From Dermatophilaceae bacterium Soc4.6 (GTDB taxonomy: Bacteria > Actinomycetota > Actinomycetes > Actinomycetales > Dermatophilaceae), in NCBI GenBank assembly GCA_039889245.1, contig JAZGVH010000002.1, forward strand, positions 434,001 to 498,000: a DNA stretch of 64,000 nucleotides. The letters run 5' to 3'. Each line of letters starts with the position of its first letter. Position 1 is the first letter of the stretch. Below the pieces are notes generated by a model that searched no databases, was not told the DNA's origin, and worked only from the letters and a program-made list of their open reading frames with translations. Position numbers and translations under genes: made by a program. Of this stretch, positions 9,190 through 59,276 are shown piece by piece.

Positions 9190-9330
9190 CAACGGTCATG
9201 AGTGCCAGCGTCAAGCCCCGGCTCGCTGGCCAGCAACCCTCTTTCGCGGTGGGGTGCTCCGGATGACGACCAGGCCCGTATGCCGTCCGGCGCGGGCAAG
9301 CGCGGACCGCCCTGCGGGGTCGGTCCTCCC
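9190..9330 (+). promoter_or_regulatory. SAM-IV riboswitch
   Basis: The leader of the class V aminotransferase gene matches the actinobacterial SAM-IV pattern. P1 pairs GGTCAT (9194-9199) with ATGACGACC near 9263-9271. P2 is GCCAGCG pairing with CGCTGGC around the SAM-I-like core AAGCCCCGG. P3 contains CAGCAACCC and GGTGGGGTG. A downstream GC-rich stem and GGCAAGCGCGG element, typical of SAM-IV pseudoknotting, follows at 9290-9310. SAM binding normally lowers expression. No clear U-run terminator is seen before the gene, so control may act at translation; the GGAGG Shine-Dalgarno lies near 9337-9342. Confidence 0.85.
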
Positions 9331-52200: not shown

Positions 52201-52567
52201 TCGCCTCGAGCTCGGCCGGCAGCCCGTGGGTGTCCCAGCCGAAGCGGCGCTCCACGCGGCGCCCCCGCATGGTCTGGTAGCGCGGGACGATGTCCTTGAC
52301 GTAACCGGTGAGCAGGTGCCCGTAGTGGGGTAGGCCGTTGGCGAACGGCGGCCCGTCGTAGAAGACGAACTCGTTCGACCCGTCGACGCCCGCCTCCCGC
52401 TGCTCGACCGAGGCGACGAAGGTGCCGTCCTCGTCCCAGTAGCGCAGCACCCGCTCCTCGATCTGCGGAAAGCGGGGGGCGGTGGGGACCCCCTGCCGGG
52501 TCGCCGGGGGGGAGTCGGACGCCGACGCCTCGTCGCTCGTGCCGGTGCTCACCTGGGGATAGGCCAT
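49226..52567 (-). CDS. ileS: isoleucyl-tRNA synthetase
   Basis: A 1113-residue class I synthetase, the length of the eukaryote-like long IleRS form. The HIGH-type motif is [11 protein letters not shown] near 55, the editing domain (about 190-400) has [24 protein letters not shown]-loop is [15 protein letters not shown] near 645, and the anticodon-binding and C-terminal domains follow. ATG 52567 with CAGGAGACC upstream is chosen over upstream codons. A T-box leader ahead of it senses uncharged tRNA-Ile. Confidence 0.97.
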
Positions 52568-52636
52568 GGACGGTCTCCTGCTCGTGCTCGTCGTCGCTGT
52601 CGTCACTCGGGTCGGTCACCCACGAGGACGACGCCT

Positions 52637-52842
52637 ACCGGGCCCTGGCCCGGTCCGCACCGCGGTACCACCTCGCTTGCCGTGCTCCTCCGGCCTCGGG
52701 GCGATCGGAGCACAACCACTCGTGTCGGGCGCTGACGGGCCCACCCGTCCGGCTCTACTGAGCCCTCGCGGCCCACGACGGGCGTGGGTCGCTCGGGCCG
52801 TTCTTCCGGAGACTCACCGCTGATGACGGCTCGAACGTCGGT
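52637..52842 (-). promoter_or_regulatory. T-box riboswitch of ileS (actinobacterial type)
   Basis: On the minus strand the conserved T-box AGGTGGTACCGCGG spans about 52673-52660. A short stem I of CCG-loop-CGG lies upstream with loop TCATCAG, giving specifier ATC (52824-52822) for Ile; this is the ultrashort stem-I class. A GC-rich hairpin, ACCGGGCC/GGCCCGGT (52637-52644 with 52647-52654), follows the T-box with no U-run. Actinobacterial ileS T-boxes usually control translation. The motif is 94 bases from the start codon. Confidence 0.85.
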
Positions 52843-53011
52843 GTAGCCAGACTACCGGCATCCGCGACGGTCGAGCACGCACATATCGGTGGTATAGCCA
52901 CACACCGGGCGCCAACTTCCCGGATTGGGTAAAGCCTGCTGCACCATGAGCACCGCCCGCCCCGTCATGAGACACCATGACCCACAACCGGACGAAGAAA
53001 AGGTCGTGCCC

Positions 53012-54874
53012 ATGTCACAGCTTCTCCCCCAGCCCACCTCGCCGCTCTCGCGCCGCACCCTCCTGGGGTCGGCAGGGGCCGCGGGTGCGTCGGTCGTCGC
53101 AGCCCCCCTGCTGGCCACGTCGGCCTCGGCGGTCACCGACCCCGCTCCGCGGATCACGCGCTCAGTCGGGCTGGACCACGTGGTCCTCGGCGCCGCGTAC
53201 GCCGACATGTACCCCACCGACGTCGTCGCGGACCCGAACTACTGGTACGTCAACGACAACGGTCGCTACCGCCTCATCGCCGTCAACCGCAAGACCGGCG
53301 TCATCGACTACGAGTTCGCCAAGGCACGGGTGCCGGGCACCGACGACCTGGCGACGGGTCGCGGCATGGGCATCGACGCGGCCGGCTACCTCTACGTCAC
53401 CGACACGATCAACAACCGCATCACCAAGATGACCAAGCGCTTCCGCACGGTCACCTCGTTCGGCGGGCGCGGCGACGGCGACGGACAGTTCCGCGGCATC
53501 ACGGACGTGGCCGTCGGCCCCGGTCTCGACGACACCGGGGCTCCGGCCGAGGTCGTCTATGCGACCGACAAGACCGGCCACCAGAACAACACCCGCATCA
53601 ACAAGTTCACGACCGACGGGCGCTCCATCGGGACGATGGGCGACATGATCGGCCTGCACTACGGCCAGCTGGTCGTCGACCCCGACAACGGCAACGTCAT
53701 CGTCTGCGACGCCATCGTCCAGGGCTTCGTCATCTTCGACAAGGCGGGCACGGTGCTCAAGAAGGTCGGGGGACGGGGCGGCGGCCCCGGTCAGTTCCTC
53801 GGCCTCCCCCGCGGGATCGACATCTACAAAGGCAAGATCTGGGTCACCGACTCGGACAACCGACGCATCCAGGTCTTCGACACCACGGGCACCTACCTCT
53901 TCGGCTTCGGCAGCTTGGGAACCGGCCAGGGCCAGTTCATCGGGCCCAAGGGCATCTCGGTCAGCAACGGGCGGGTGCTGGTGTGTGACCTCTACGGCTA
54001 CGGCCTCGACGAGTTCGACCTCCAGGGGCGCTCCACGCGCAGCTTCTTCGGGGGGGTCCCGCCGATCAACGGGGTCAACAAGCCCAAGGGTCTCGACATC
54101 GACTCGTCGGGCAAGGTGCACGTCATCGACTGGTGGCGCCAGGCCATCGTGCGGTGCGACCTGGACGGCACCAACCCCCAGCAGGTGGGCCAGACCGGTG
54201 ACCGCAAGACCCCCGGGGCGCTCACCTTCCCGACCGACGTCCGCGTGCAGCCCGGCACCGGGGTGATCTACGTCTGCAACCGGGAGAGCAACGACATCGA
54301 GGTCCTCAACCCCGACGGCACCTCGCACAAGAAGGCCTTCTTCGGCGTCCAGGACGTCCACCACCCGGTGGGGCTGGCCTTCGCCCCGAACGGCGACCTC
54401 CTGGTCTCCGACAGCCCGGCCAAGCGCATCGTGCGCTTCACCCTCGACGCGAACGGCCACGGCACCTTCGCCGACGCCGACGACGCCGCGGCGATCGGCG
54501 GGCTGCGCTACTGCTCCGGCCTGGACGTCGCCCCCGACGGCACGGTCTGGGTCGCCGACAACCTCGGCCTGTGCCGCCGCACCCCGGCCGGCGTGTGGAC
54601 GCGCTTCGAGCAGGCCACGGGCAGTGCGATGCCGTTCAAGACCCCGTGGGGGGTGCGCGTCGGACCCGACGGACTCATCTACGCGACCGACTCCGGCAAC
54701 AACCGGGTCGTGGTCATGCGGGCCAACGGCCGGCTCGTCGCCGAGACCGCGCCGAGCGACGTGTTCGACGGCCGGGCGCTCTACGGCCCGCAGGGCATTG
54801 CGATCGGGCCGGACGGCCTGGTCTACGTCGCCGACACGAGCAACGACCGGGTGCTCGCCCTCAGGGTCCGGTGA
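53012..54874 (+). CDS. Tat-exported 12-repeat NHL beta-propeller protein, copy 1
   Basis: A 620-residue exported protein. SRRTLLGSAGAAGASVV is a twin-arginine signal, with cleavage near ASA at about residue 38. Twelve NHL-type repeats can be counted, each with a V-x-D-x(2)NxRI-x-V/K-F core, for example YVTDTINNRITKM, WVTDSDNRRIQVF, VYVADTSNDRVLAL. Twelve repeats would fold as two six-blade propellers. There is no membrane anchor or catalytic motif. ATG 53012 has GAAGAAAAGG upstream. A close paralog lies at 57411. Function is unknown; NHL propellers bind ligands or act as lactonase-like enzymes. Confidence 0.85.
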   Translation: MSQLLPQPTSPLSRRTLLGSAGAAGASVVAAPLLATSASAVTDPAPRITRSVGLDHVVLGAAYADMYPTDVVADPNYWYVNDNGRYRLIAVNRKTGVIDYEFAKARVPGTDDLATGRGMGIDAAGYLYVTDTINNRITKMTKRFRTVTSFGGRGDGDGQFRGITDVAVGPGLDDTGAPAEVVYATDKTGHQNNTRINKFTTDGRSIGTMGDMIGLHYGQLVVDPDNGNVIVCDAIVQGFVIFDKAGTVLKKVGGRGGGPGQFLGLPRGIDIYKGKIWVTDSDNRRIQVFDTTGTYLFGFGSLGTGQGQFIGPKGISVSNGRVLVCDLYGYGLDEFDLQGRSTRSFFGGVPPINGVNKPKGLDIDSSGKVHVIDWWRQAIVRCDLDGTNPQQVGQTGDRKTPGALTFPTDVRVQPGTGVIYVCNRESNDIEVLNPDGTSHKKAFFGVQDVHHPVGLAFAPNGDLLVSDSPAKRIVRFTLDANGHGTFADADDAAAIGGLRYCSGLDVAPDGTVWVADNLGLCRRTPAGVWTRFEQATGSAMPFKTPWGVRVGPDGLIYATDSGNNRVVVMRANGRLVAETAPSDVFDGRALYGPQGIAIGPDGLVYVADTSNDRVLALRVR

Positions 54875-54880
54875 CCACGG

Positions 54881-54910
54881 CACCGGCACCCCCAGCCGGG
54901 GGTGCCGGTG
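54881..54910 (+). terminator. terminator hairpin after NHL copy 1
   Basis: CACCGGCACCCCC (54881-54893) and GGGGGTGCCGGTG (54898-54910) form a perfect 13-bp stem with a 4-base loop, seven bases after the stop codon. Confidence 0.75.
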
Positions 54911-54977
54911 GGCACGGTGAGGGCGACCGGCCATCCCGACCGGGGAGAGACCCCGGCCTGCTGGTAGAAACGACGGC

Positions 54978-55511
54978 ATGACCGAGACCGATACCCAGGG
55001 TTCGTGGTTGACCGCCGAGCAGCTGCGCGACGCCCGCGACCGGCTACCCATCCTGTATGTCGACGCGGTGCCGGTGCGGCTGGACGAGCGGGGTGCGCTC
55101 ACCGGCATCGGTCTGCTGCTGCGCGCCACCAGCGAGGGTGCGATCAACCACGAGCTCGTCTCCGGGCGGGTGCTCTACCACGAGCGCATCCGCGACGCCC
55201 TGATGCGTCACCTCGAGAAGGACCTCGGGCCGCTCGCCATGCCGCACATCCCCGTGTCGCCGGTGCCCTTCACCGTCGCCGAGTACTTCCCCACCCCGGG
55301 CATCACACCCTTCCACGACCCCCGCCAGCACGCGGTGTCGCTGGCCTTCGTGGTGCCGGTGGCCGGTGACTGCGCCCCCCAGCAGGACGCGCTCGACTTC
55401 TCGTGGGTCACGCCCGAAGAGGCCGGCCGGCTCGCCTCGCTCGGCGAGATGGAGAACGGCCACGGCGTGCTCCTGCGTCAGGCGCTGGCCCACCTCGGCT
55501 TCGCGGTCTGA
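54978..55511 (+). CDS. NUDIX-fold protein (DUF4916 family)
   Basis: A 177-residue protein with SWLTAEQLRDARDRLPILYV, GLLLRATSEGAINHELVSGR, IRDALMRHLEKDLGPLAMP and FHDPRQHAVSLAFVVPV, the layout of DUF4916. It has a NUDIX-like fold but the canonical GX5EX7REUXEEXGU box is degenerate: ERIRDALMRHLEKDLG keeps the spacing with one Glu, so catalysis is uncertain. It is encoded between NHL copy 1 and the photolyase. Confidence 0.8.
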   Translation: MTETDTQGSWLTAEQLRDARDRLPILYVDAVPVRLDERGALTGIGLLLRATSEGAINHELVSGRVLYHERIRDALMRHLEKDLGPLAMPHIPVSPVPFTVAEYFPTPGITPFHDPRQHAVSLAFVVPVAGDCAPQQDALDFSWVTPEEAGRLASLGEMENGHGVLLRQALAHLGFAV

Positions 55512-55529
55512 GGTCTCGCCGCCCAGAGG

Positions 55530-57032
55530 TCACGGCGGGTCGGACCCACGGCGCTCCTCCTGGGCCACCAGCTGCTCGCGGTCGCGCAGCCGCTCCAGCC
55601 CCTTGACGGGCTGCGCCATCCGGAAGTTGCCCGCCAGCTCGCTCTTGGTGCGGTCGAGGAACCACCAGTAGCCGGCCGTGACGGGGCAGGCCTTCTCGCC
55701 CACCCGCACCTTGGGGTCGAAGGGACAGGCGCGGCAGTGGTCGGTCATCCGGGAGATGTAGGCACCGCCGGCGGCATACGGCTTGGTGGCCATGATCCCG
55801 CCGTCGGCGTACTGCGACATGCCGACGACGTTGGGCACCATGACCCAGTCGTATCCGTCGACGAAGGCGCGGTGGAACCAGTCGGTGAGCTCGTCCGGGC
55901 GCCAACCACGCTGGAGAGCATAGTTTCCCAAGATCATGAGTCTCGGGATGTGGTGTGCCCAGCCGTGGTCACGCACACCAGCGAGGGCGTGCGAGATGCA
56001 ACGCGCATTCGTCGCCTCGGCGTCCAGGTTGGCGAACCAGTCGGGGAGGGGCTCGCGCTGGTCCAGCCGGTTGAGGTGCCGGTAGTCGTCGCCGAGGTGC
56101 CAGTAGAGGTGCCAGACGTAGTCGCGCCAGCCCATCACCTGCCGGATGAAACCCTCGGCCGACGCGAGGGGGACGTCGCCGTCCCGGAAGGCCTGCTCGG
56201 CCCGGGAGACGACCTCGAGGGGGTCGAGCAGACCGAGGTTCATCGGTGCCGAGAGCAGGGAGTGGGCCATCCAGTCATCGCCCTCGAGCACGACGTCCTC
56301 GTGGGGGCCGAACTCCGGCAGGCGGTGGACCACGAAGTCGTCGAGCACCGCCAGGGCCTCGTCACGGGTGGCGGCGAACCGTCGCGGGGCGTCGACACCG
56401 AGGAAGGTGACGTCTCCGTCGGCCTCCCACCGGTCGAGATCGGCGCGCACCTGCTCGTCGATCTCGTCCTCGACCGGCCACCAGGGCTGCGCCACACCGA
56501 GGGTCGTGCGACCCTTCGGGGCCGGCTCGCGGTTGTCGTGGTCGAGGTTCCACCGACCACCGACCGGCTCCCCGTCACCCTCGAGGAGCACGTGGTGGCG
56601 ACGACGGGCATCACGGTAGAAGTCCTCCATGAGCAGGCGACGCTCCCCGCGTGAGCGGGCCCAGGCCGTGAAGTCCTCGCGGGAGGTCACGAACCCCCTG
56701 GCCGGGAGCCGCTCGAGGTCGCGCTCCTCCGACAGCCGCCGCACCAGGCCGACTGCGGCCCGGCTCGTCGGCTGCACCACCTGCAGCGGGCCGTCGACCC
56801 GGGCCAGCGCGTCCCGGTAGGTGCCATCGGCCACGTGCAGCACCCGCCCCTCGAGCTCGCGGGCCCGGTGCCGCATGGCCGAGAGCACCAGGTGGGCCTT
56901 CTGGCGGTGGAACCGTCGGCGGGCGAAGACCCGCTTCGACTCGACGAGCAGCACCCGTCCGTCGTGGTCGTCAAGGAAGTGGGGCCCGAGCTGGTCTCCG
57001 AAGAGCCACCGGGTCGCGGGTTGGGTCGGCAC
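55530..57032 (-). CDS. Fe-S cryptochrome/photolyase (FeS-BCP / PhrB-like)
   Basis: A 500-residue flavoprotein of the prokaryotic (6-4) photolyase family. WLFGDQLGPHFLDD at the N-terminus is the start of the antenna domain; GFIRQVMGWRDYVWHLYWHL near 330 and MPNVVGMSQYADGG-like WVMVPNVVGMSQYADGGIMA near 420 bind FAD. Four Cys for a 4Fe-4S cluster are in NARCISHAL, CRACPFDPKV and GEKACPVTAGYWW. It repairs UV photoproducts or acts as a light sensor. GTG 57032 is the only start consistent with homology. It is convergent with the NUDIX gene and divergent from NHL copy 2. Confidence 0.92.
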   Translation of the reverse strand: MPTQPATRWLFGDQLGPHFLDDHDGRVLLVESKRVFARRRFHRQKAHLVLSAMRHRARELEGRVLHVADGTYRDALARVDGPLQVVQPTSRAAVGLVRRLSEERDLERLPARGFVTSREDFTAWARSRGERRLLMEDFYRDARRRHHVLLEGDGEPVGGRWNLDHDNREPAPKGRTTLGVAQPWWPVEDEIDEQVRADLDRWEADGDVTFLGVDAPRRFAATRDEALAVLDDFVVHRLPEFGPHEDVVLEGDDWMAHSLLSAPMNLGLLDPLEVVSRAEQAFRDGDVPLASAEGFIRQVMGWRDYVWHLYWHLGDDYRHLNRLDQREPLPDWFANLDAEATNARCISHALAGVRDHGWAHHIPRLMILGNYALQRGWRPDELTDWFHRAFVDGYDWVMVPNVVGMSQYADGGIMATKPYAAGGAYISRMTDHCRACPFDPKVRVGEKACPVTAGYWWFLDRTKSELAGNFRMAQPVKGLERLRDREQLVAQEERRGSDPP

Positions 57033-57410
57033 CCTGCGACCGTATGCCGCGAGCCCACCCCGCGCAGCCCGGCACCGAGTGGACGTCGGGGGCCTTGGGC
57101 GCGCCACCAGCGCGTGACTGCGGTCCCCCCTCGGGACCCGGCTGGCCGTCTCGCCCGCCGCCGGGCCGGGGACCGCAGGCACCACCTCCTGGTGGACCTG
57201 CCGGACCGGGCCCCAGCGTGCCGGCCCGGGCGACTGATCTGCGTGCGCGTCCTGTCCAGGGGCTGACCCCACGTGCGCACACCGCCATCTCGCGTGCAAC
57301 ACCGGCTCACGGCGGCGGACCGTGGTGCAGGATGGGCAGGCGGGAGGCCTCAGCCGTCGCTCGCACCTCGGGGTTCGACGGCGAGCCCCGCCAGCACGGG
57401 AGGAACCTCG
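57033..57410. promoter_or_regulatory. photolyase/NHL-2 intergenic region
   Basis: 378 bases between divergent genes with no supported gene. It holds an 11-bp inverted repeat CTGCGGTCCCC / GGGGACCGCAG (57118-57128, 57168-57178) and a CCACC-TCCT-GGTGG hairpin (57182-57195). GGGAGG at about 57398-57403 is the ribosome site of NHL copy 2. Confidence 0.5.
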
Positions 57411-59276
57411 ATGTCCACCTCGCCCCGCAGCCCCCGGCCACGCCTGACCCGACGCGCCCTCCTCGGCGCCGCCGGCACCGTCACCGCAGGTGCTGCCGTG
57501 CTCCCCGCCTCCGCAGCGTCGGCCAGCGCCGCGTCCGGCCGCCCTTCCGGTGCGGTTCAGGCCCCGGCGCTCGCCCTGGACCACGTCGTTCTCGGGGCGG
57601 CCTACGCGGACATGTATCCCACTGACGTCGTGGCCGACGACCGCTACTGGTACGTCAACGACAACGGGCGCTACCGGCTCGTCGCGGTCAACCGGGTGAC
57701 CGGGCAGATCGACTACGAGCAGTCCAAGGCGAGGGTGCCCGGCATCGACGACCTCGCAACCGGTCGCGGCATGGGCATGGACGCCGCCGGCAACCTCTAC
57801 GTCACCGACACCATCAACAACCGCATCGCCAAGCTGGACAAGCGCTTCGGCGCCATCCTGTCGTTCGGCGGGCGCGGCACGGGCCCCGGCCAGTTCAAGG
57901 GGGTCACCGACGTCGCGGTGGGGCCGGGGGTCGACGACACCGGCGCGAGCGTCGAGGTGGTCTACGCGACCGACAAGGCTGCTCACCTGAACAACACCCG
58001 CATCAACAAGTTCACCACCGACGGCCGGTTCATCGGCACCCTCGGTGAGAACCTGCACCTGCACTACGGGCAGCTCGTCGTCGACCCGGACAGCCACCAC
58101 GTGATCGTCTGCGACGCCATCGTGCAGGGCTTCGTCATCTTCGACGAGCTCGGCACGATCCTGCGGAAGGTCGGAGGCCGCGGGTCGGCTCCCGGACAGT
58201 TCAAGGGTCTCCCCCGCGGCATCGACGTCGCCGAGGGCAAGATCTGGGTCACCGACTCAGACAACCGCCGCATCCAGGTCTTCGACCTCGCGGGCAACTA
58301 CCTGTTCGCCTTCGGCAGCAGCGGCACCGGTCTGGGGCAGTTCATCGGGCCCAAGGGGATCGCGGTCAACGGCGGACGGGTCATCGTCTGCGACCTCTAC
58401 GGCTACGGGCTCGACGAGTTCGACCTGACCGGCAGCCCGACCCGCAGCTTCTTCGGTGCGGTCCCCCCGATCGACGGGGTCAACAAGCCCAAGGGTCTCG
58501 ACATCGACGCCTCGGGCAAGGTCAACGTCATCGACTGGTGGCGCCAGGCCATCGTGCGCTGCGACCTCGACGGCACCAACGCCGAGCAGGTCGGCATGAC
58601 AGGTGACCGCACGACCCCCGGAGCCCTCACCTTCCCCACCGACGTGCGGGTGGAGCGGTCCGGCCTGATCTACGTCGCCAACCGCGAGAGCAACGACATC
58701 GAGGTGCTCGATCCCGACGGGTCGTCGCACCGGGCCGCCGCGTTCGGCACGCGGGAGCTGCACCACCCCGTCGGTCTCGCCTTCACCCCCGCCGGCGACG
58801 TCGTGGTCACCGACAGCCCCAACAAGCGCATCGTGCGCTACGTGCTCGACGGCTCGGGTCACGGAACGGTTGCCGAAACCGACTCGGCCAGCAGCATCGG
58901 TGGCCTGCGCTACTGCTCGGGGATCGACGTCGCCCCCGACGGCACGGTGTGGGTTGCCGACAACCTCGGCCTCTGCCGACGCACGACCGGTGGCGTATGG
59001 AGACGCTTCCTGCAGGCCACGGGCAGCGCCCGCCCCTTCCGCAGCCCCTGGGGTGTGCGGGTCGGTCCCGACGGCCTGATCTACGCCACCGACGCCGGCA
59101 ACAACCGGATCGTCGTCATGGACGACCAGGGTGTCCTGGTGGCGGAGACCACCCCGACCGACGTGTGGGACGGTCGTCCGCTCTACGACCCCCAGGGCCT
59201 GGCGGTCGGCCCCGACGGGCTGCTCTACGTCGCCGACACCAACAACGACCGGGTGCTCGCCTTCTCGCTGGCGTAG
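57411..59276 (+). CDS. Tat-exported 12-repeat NHL beta-propeller protein, copy 2
   Basis: A 621-residue paralog of the protein at 53012, aligning from end to end with few gaps and clearly more similar than chance: DHVVLGAAYADMYPTDVVAD, YWYVNDNGRYRL, SDNRRIQVFD, KPKGLDID and WWRQAIVRCDLDGTN are shared. The twin-arginine signal is TRRALLGAAGTVTAGAAV, with a probable AxA cleavage near residue 43. The same 12 repeats are present. Differences cluster in the signal peptide and linker. ATG 57411 has GGGAGG upstream. It ends 16 bases before the convergent radical SAM gene. Confidence 0.85.
   Translation: MSTSPRSPRPRLTRRALLGAAGTVTAGAAVLPASAASASAASGRPSGAVQAPALALDHVVLGAAYADMYPTDVVADDRYWYVNDNGRYRLVAVNRVTGQIDYEQSKARVPGIDDLATGRGMGMDAAGNLYVTDTINNRIAKLDKRFGAILSFGGRGTGPGQFKGVTDVAVGPGVDDTGASVEVVYATDKAAHLNNTRINKFTTDGRFIGTLGENLHLHYGQLVVDPDSHHVIVCDAIVQGFVIFDELGTILRKVGGRGSAPGQFKGLPRGIDVAEGKIWVTDSDNRRIQVFDLAGNYLFAFGSSGTGLGQFIGPKGIAVNGGRVIVCDLYGYGLDEFDLTGSPTRSFFGAVPPIDGVNKPKGLDIDASGKVNVIDWWRQAIVRCDLDGTNAEQVGMTGDRTTPGALTFPTDVRVERSGLIYVANRESNDIEVLDPDGSSHRAAAFGTRELHHPVGLAFTPAGDVVVTDSPNKRIVRYVLDGSGHGTVAETDSASSIGGLRYCSGIDVAPDGTVWVADNLGLCRRTTGGVWRRFLQATGSARPFRSPWGVRVGPDGLIYATDAGNNRIVVMDDQGVLVAETTPTDVWDGRPLYDPQGLAVGPDGLLYVADTNNDRVLAFSLA

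Follow-up and report, generated by a model that had tools for sequence, protein, structure and literature searches.

A lineage-specific pair of predicted double-propeller NHL proteins with twin-arginine leaders in Dermatophilaceae bacterium Soc4.6

Two similar genes for NHL-repeat proteins, designated here as NHL1 and NHL2, were recognized in a 64,000-nucleotide stretch of the genome of Dermatophilaceae bacterium Soc4.6 (GCA_039889245.1, contig JAZGVH010000002.1, positions 434,001 to 498,000), which is called the window below and to which all positions refer. NHL1 (53012–54874, + strand) encodes a probably exported protein of 620 amino acids, and NHL2 (57411–59276, + strand) a probably exported protein of 621 amino acids; both were analyzed with BLASTP, Pfam and predicted models. 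The initial annotation, made from the sequence alone, had aligned the two products over their full length. Its coordinates were right, and BLASTP gave 461 identical positions out of 627 (74%) between residues 1–619 of NHL1 and 1–620 of NHL2, with the E-value 0. The Pfam NHL model matches the two proteins with 127.8 and 155.4 bits (cut-off 20), and four stretches per protein pass the E-value limit by themselves. A rough regular expression detects nine blades in NHL1 and eight in NHL2, and the remainder was read by eye. The strand lists of both predicted models contain twelve A-B-C sets, and together these readings bear out the twelve NHL repeats first proposed for each protein.

Both proteins start with a leader of the twin-arginine translocation (Tat) type. 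The motif search revealed SRRTLL in the leader of NHL1 (53012–53131, + strand) and TRRALL in that of NHL2 (57411–57530, + strand); judged by eye, cleavage would follow ATSASA and AASASA, respectively. The strict motif [ST]RRx[FL]L starts at residue 13 in both leaders and arose in 0.06–0.12% of 5000 sequences made by shuffling residues 1–50, which agrees with the earlier view that the two copies carry separate twin-arginine signals and that both signals were kept after the duplication. TatC is encoded in the genome. Neither LPxTG, a lipobox nor a strongly hydrophobic stretch was found in mature NHL1 and NHL2 (best 19-residue mean 1.4–1.5), and the proteins are thus likely to lack an anchor, as had been stated. 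We infer that NHL1 and NHL2 are secreted by Tat. The leader survey covered 16 rows, four of which were trimmed, and 12 sequences had their own N-terminus. The strict motif was present in three of these 12, all from this genus, and a looser motif in five, including those three. The relatives at loci L046, L052 and L055 contain an RR pair outside the twin-arginine pattern. None of the six Dormibacterota relatives with their own N-terminus fits the motif. Because of this, and because the strict motif is confined to the three sequences of this genus, Tat use seems to be a trait of the host lineage and not a requirement of the fold.

The fold was predicted from two alignments. A2, which consists of NHL1, NHL2 and 13 relatives, was used for NHL2, and A3, with the same rows and NHL1 first, for NHL1. 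A2 represents 13 of the 15 loci from a wider genome scan; L054, which is cut off by the end of its contig, and L056 are not included, four rows (L044, L047, L048 and L049) were reduced to the matching part, and some rows come from one genome. The protein P0005 from a genus-mate is outside the folded alignments and was included in the pairwise comparison (as DNA), the tree and the leader survey. The AlphaFold models are confident except for the leader, with pLDDT 84.2 and 84.4 and pTM 0.81 and 0.82 for NHL2 and NHL1, respectively. In VIA-align 2, both models match the NHL domain of TRIM3 (7qrw; Z 36.8 and 37.0, 267 aligned residues, 2.1 Å) and the PknD sensor (1rwl; Z 30.9 and 30.8).

The ranges aligned by VIA-align 2 indicate how the twelve blades could be divided. 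In the case of NHL2, the majority of the 50 rows run from about residue 50 to about 620 with only 238–274 aligned residues, many of them spanning 55–621 with about 267. Two SOQ1 rows cover residues 66–348 and NHLRC2 rows cover 64–350 and 65–350, with 270–274 aligned residues, while two further SOQ1 rows cover 66–563 and 85–621 and a permuted Pizza row covers 357–621. The simple reading is that residues 66–348 (blades 1–6; 57606–58454, + strand) form propeller 1, as suggested by the model and the SOQ1 and NHLRC2 rows, and that residues 357–621 (blades 7–12; 58479–59273, + strand), which carry the DWWxQ, NRES and PWG loops and were assigned from the model, VIA-align and conservation, form propeller 2 together with an N-terminal strand at residues 54–63 (57570–57599, + strand; model and VIA-align). 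Since the aligned ranges give the first and last residues only, the closing of propeller 2 by this strand is a probable rather than a direct reading. In NHL1, rows 352–620 and 355–620 mark propeller 2 (blades 7–12, approximately residues 355–620; 54074–54871, + strand), for which the model agrees, and the strand that would close it lies in the model at residues 52–61 (53165–53194, + strand). Propeller 1 of NHL1 would occupy approximately residues 64–346 (blades 1–6; 53201–54049, + strand). The tandem of two six-bladed propellers that had been suggested from the repeat number is thus supported by structure prediction and VIA-align for NHL2, and less directly for NHL1.

The proteins appear to belong to an uncharacterised subfamily of the well-known NHL kind, and this family looks rare. 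The NHL model matches 15 of the 15 family members at E ≤ 0.001, and the teneurin NHL model is above its Pfam cut-off for NHL1 only. No NCBIfam model reaches its cut-off for either protein; the best is ScyF (NF035926), with 163.8 and 177 bits against 350, and a ScyE-type model also matches below its cut-off. Virginiamycin B lyase (PF24684) scores 39.6 and 36.8 bits, under the curated cut-off of 50. In enzymes of the SMP-30/gluconolactonase family (SGL, PF08450), the Asn of PNG and the Asp of PDG bind metal. Searching the whole genome with SGL gave one gene (L071), which is neither NHL1 nor NHL2. When its product was aligned with A2 by hhalign (110 columns, 24% identity), PNG corresponded to PVG and PDG to CSG of NHL2; NHL1 also has PVG and CSG, and the family consensus PQG and PTG. 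In peptidyl-hydroxyglycine amidating lyase (PAL), Zn is bound by histidines. None of the alignment columns has His or Cys in all 15 sequences, and the best columns at NHL2's own His and Cys residues hold 3 of 15 and 2 of 15, respectively. Given this, and given that all six Dormibacterota relatives with their own N-terminus are devoid of the twin-arginine motif, the proposal that Tat use implies metal binding is weak. The lack of invariant His or Cys and the replaced SMP-30 metal motifs argue for binding proteins rather than enzymes.

The B-C and D-A loops of such propellers are conventionally taken to form a "cup" that commonly contains a binding or active site (PMC6107167). D375, W377, N424, R425, E426 and W547 of NHL2 are invariant in the 15 sequences and map to the B-C loops of two blades (7 and 8) and to the strand-A entry of blade 11. 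The cup of propeller 2 has unusual loops, which are kept across phyla as D[WY]W (blade 7), NRE (blade 8) and PWG (blade 11).

The initial annotation considered the pair as two specialised versions of one function, a view that the distribution of differences does not support. NHL1 and NHL2 differ at 39 of 180 positions in the predicted top (ligand) loops versus 87 of 388 elsewhere, so the top loops are not enriched, and in all 12 blades the copies agree in the residue immediately preceding the conserved strand-A Gly/Asp. By loop class, the differences are 6/50 for B-C, 33/130 for D-A, 21/54 for C-D and 15/52 for A-B; by strand class, 22/70 for D, 10/76 for A, 9/67 for B and 10/69 for C. The fastest-changing classes, the C-D loops and D strands, make up the outer edge. 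In the leader region, 35 of 53 positions differ, versus 126 of 568 in the remainder, and no BLASTN match was found between the 330-bp stretches around the two starts. Because the cup-entry residues are the same while leaders and upstream DNA differ, the comparison favours dosage or separate regulation over new specificity, although a few decisive changes could still matter.

Two genes separate NHL1 from NHL2. One (54978–55511, + strand) encodes a DUF4916 protein (PF16262) that also has a NUDIX match in Pfam, and the other (55530–57032, − strand; GTG start by eye) a deoxyribodipyrimidine photolyase-related protein (PF04244, DPRP), whose translation contains four cysteines, presumably matching the pattern typical of Fe-S photolyases. 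Upstream of NHL1 is ileS (− strand; named by eye), and downstream of NHL2 a radical-SAM gene (− strand). Purine-rich ribosome-binding stretches precede the starts of both NHL genes (by eye). NHL1 and the DUF4916 gene share a strand and are separated by about 100 bp, and they might be transcribed jointly. A functional link of the pair to the NUDIX and photolyase genes was considered and is thought unlikely, as the two genes are adjacent without NHL in the genus-mate G001 (L063). None of the seven other family stretches fetched, G001 included, has an NHL gene at the corresponding site, and because of this the setting seems incidental; on Pfam and neighbour comparison, both genes are probably bystanders. 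The NUDIX box usually contains the pairs RE and EE; in the DUF4916 protein these read RH and KD (by eye), so its nucleotide hydrolysis, if any, may depart from the usual mode.

Rfam returned no match in 52500–53100 at E ≤ 1, so no regulatory RNA was recognized ahead of NHL1. A sequence resembling a T-box core, GGTGGTACCGCGG, is present at 52659–52673 on the − strand ahead of ileS, and likewise in the genus-mate G002 (by eye); Rfam gave no match for it. The sole Rfam match in the window is a SAM-IV riboswitch at 9194–9308 (+ strand, 104.8 bits).

Three genomes of the genus were compared. The source genome (G000) has two copies, and G002 has one, between the DUF4916 gene and ileS; no copy was found in G001, a 91%-complete draft, at E ≤ 0.001. 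The ileS–DUF4916 interval of G001 lies on one contig and contains an FAD-linked oxidase and a Na/H exchanger in place of NHL. In the seven family stretches, four (L063–L066) carry at this interval an oxidase-like gene product about 460 amino acids long, tested in L063 and assigned by the likeness of starts in L064–L066, and three (L067–L069) have other genes. The interval is a variable spot in the family (L063–L069, L041), occupied by oxidase-like, Na/H exchanger, NHL or other genes. Since the best matches of the G001 oxidase in G000 and G002 are only 45% and 46% identical, its orthologue is probably absent from both.

Pairwise identity is 74.3% between NHL1 and NHL2, 68.6% between NHL1 and the G002 protein, and 67.8% between NHL2 and the G002 protein. 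Among 611 shared columns, 86 unite NHL1 and NHL2, versus 45 and 40 for the other pairings. The tree also unites them, with support 93/91, just under the starred level. Long branches meet in this tree and the composition of the G002 row is odd, so the deeper placement of the genus clade is tentative. NHL1 and NHL2 probably split after the G002 lineage had diverged. With dN 0.19, dS 0.57 and dN/dS 0.34, both copies are under purifying constraint. The finding is real but mostly ordinary: a lineage-specific gene duplicate in an uncharacterised NHL subfamily.

Of 29 pattern matches from a scan of genome contigs with NHL2 as the sole query, none was confirmed. The scan with a five-row alignment yielded 15 loci from 38 matches to two short patterns, which is a lower bound: five from Actinomycetota (Tetrasphaera-type), eight from Dormibacterota, one from Armatimonadota and one from Chloroflexota, some of them in one genome. 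The relatives show 31–40% identity. Within the family, 5 of 186 genomes have a relative at E ≤ 1e-30, two of this genus and three of one other genus. When 396 genomes sampled from the order and 396 sampled from the phylum were searched at E ≤ 1e-40, only the source genome matched; these samples missed known carriers, and the figures represent rarity, not absence. A plasmid search returned one distant record, from Candidatus Chlorohelix (29.5% over 80%). No literature joining the NHL repeat to Tetrasphaera, or joining the NHL repeat, Dormibacter and secretion, was found in a search whose coverage leaves out most subscription journals.

The fetched stretches of 7 of the 15 loci contain a further NHL-like gene (L039 and L040 standing for L047 and L045). 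The Tetrasphaera-type genome G013 has 11 NHL-like genes, by BLASTP likeness, in four fetched stretches; nine of them, including a 1199-aa frame, are in L039 (G013:C30:6001-26000) and L043, with a DUF1565 protein nearby in L039. NHL genes are also grouped in several Dormibacterota loci. The relatives L044, L047 and L049 are in frames of 1199–1331 amino acids, and in the genome of L047 NHL2 is matched by the additional half too. After the long Tetrasphaera-type frame of L047 come genes for a sulfotransferase, a MurJ/O-antigen-ligase protein and two glycosyltransferases. Because the relatives sit in unrelated settings, NHL genes seem to move singly.

Taken together, NHL1 and NHL2 have an about even chance of being exported, soluble, interlocked double propellers that act as binding proteins and not as enzymes, with the duplicate kept for dosage or regulation. 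The two proteins would leave the cell in soluble form, probably via Tat, and each chain would fold into two six-bladed NHL propellers, with the first strand completing the last blade. Each propeller would offer a top-face cup for binding, without catalysis. The ligand could be a surface glycan or a protein of the cell envelope or matrix; the genes that adjoin the L047 relative are a faint hint at a glycan. The second copy would have arisen in the lineage of this species and been kept by purifying selection with the same cup-entry residues, and its differing leader and upstream DNA would be easier to reconcile with a higher output or separate regulation than with a new specificity. A copy for each of two different ligands is quite unlikely: both copies are kept, they are 26% diverged and the D-A loops are slightly above the average in differences, but the B-C loops are the least changed, the strand-A entries are the same throughout and the top loops as a whole are not enriched. 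A wider scenario is speculative and deserves limited credence: an unnamed secreted family of interlocked double propellers in a few Intrasporangiaceae-type actinobacteria, Dormibacterota, Armatimonadota and Chloroflexota might have multiplied into clusters and longer fusions, perhaps of four propellers, as modular binders of surface glycans or matrix, with the window as a recent two-copy outpost.

Several observations weigh against exported double-propeller binding proteins. No VIA-align row of NHL1 is confined to the first half, and those to SOQ1 and NHLRC2 extend to residue 562 or 620, so propeller 1 of NHL1 was placed from the strand list and the 74% identity with NHL2. Foldseek superposed the whole chain poorly, with a TM by query not exceeding 0.39 among the 50 matches listed; this prompted a single ring of twelve blades as a candidate, which was rejected on the six-blade match for each half of NHL2. 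At the B-C loops and strand-A entries, propeller 2 has 19 invariant positions out of 58 and propeller 1 has 15 out of 64, a modest gap. The L047-type hint comes from relatives 37–39% identical in another genus, and L046 is set among exonuclease, helicase and tatC genes and other relatives near ATP synthase (by eye). NHL1 and NHL2 also pass the cut-offs of DUF5128 and of SGL (39.9 and 44.2 bits; cut-off 26.3), and the SGL model recognizes all 15 family members at E ≤ 0.001. That no NCBIfam model reaches its cut-off agrees with a pair outside the known families, and the SGL match counts against this, although the metal residues of SGL are replaced. The SGL matches, together with that of rat amidating lyase (3fvz; Z 29.7 and 29.8) to both models, are what a secreted six-bladed-propeller enzyme would lead one to expect, such as a lactonase, a lyase or an esterase whose pore might contain metal. 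The replaced SGL metal positions, the lack of invariant His or Cys and the genome-wide SGL search, which does not list the pair, make such an enzyme improbable, although one using residues other than those of SMP-30 is possible. One His and one Cys column are held by 8 of the 15 sequences, namely the eight Dormibacterota rows and not the window proteins, and that part of the family could have a site that NHL1 and NHL2 lack. It is also rather unlikely that the propellers serve as helpers in a secreted or envelope pathway, where they would bind and steady another exported enzyme or an intermediate. ScyF is the best NCBIfam match, though under its cut-off, and deletion of scyF lowers but does not abolish output of the pigment scytonemin, in whose synthesis its authors propose an adjuvant or chaperone role for ScyF (PMC4870267). 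Against this role, no pathway adjoins the NHL genes, and ileS, the DUF4916, photolyase and radical-SAM genes all occur without NHL in G001 or family genomes.

For a probably secreted NHL family without an assigned role, the pair offers a small and testable case, and the identity of its ligand would aid the annotation of proteins called only "NHL repeat" or "6-bladed beta-propeller". Tetrasphaera, to which some carriers are similar, matters in wastewater phosphorus removal. The PknD sensor and the NHL domains of TRIM/Brat proteins resemble NHL1 and NHL2 in their six-bladed NHL propeller, with Z about 31–37. PknD has one propeller in a membrane kinase, whereas NHL1 and NHL2 have two and are predicted to be free and exported; the TRIM/Brat domains sit in cytoplasmic RNA binders. 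SMP-30/gluconolactonase is similar enough for the Pfam cut-off to be passed, but its Asn/Asp metal motifs are replaced. In the tandem propellers of Utp21 and Aip1, the N-terminal strand completes the last blade (PMC3897721). The strand list of NHL2 and its aligned ranges, which give end points only, are compatible with a closing N-terminal strand of this kind; Utp21 and Aip1 differ in being eukaryotic, intracellular proteins with WD repeats, seven blades each in Utp21. The best NCBIfam matches, ScyF (NF035926) and ScyD/ScyE (NF033206) of the cyanobacterial scytonemin cluster, are likewise NHL or propeller proteins thought to be extracytoplasmic. NHL1 and NHL2 differ from ScyF in reaching about half of its curated cut-off, in having no PEP-CTERM-like tail (by eye) and in having no pathway genes nearby.

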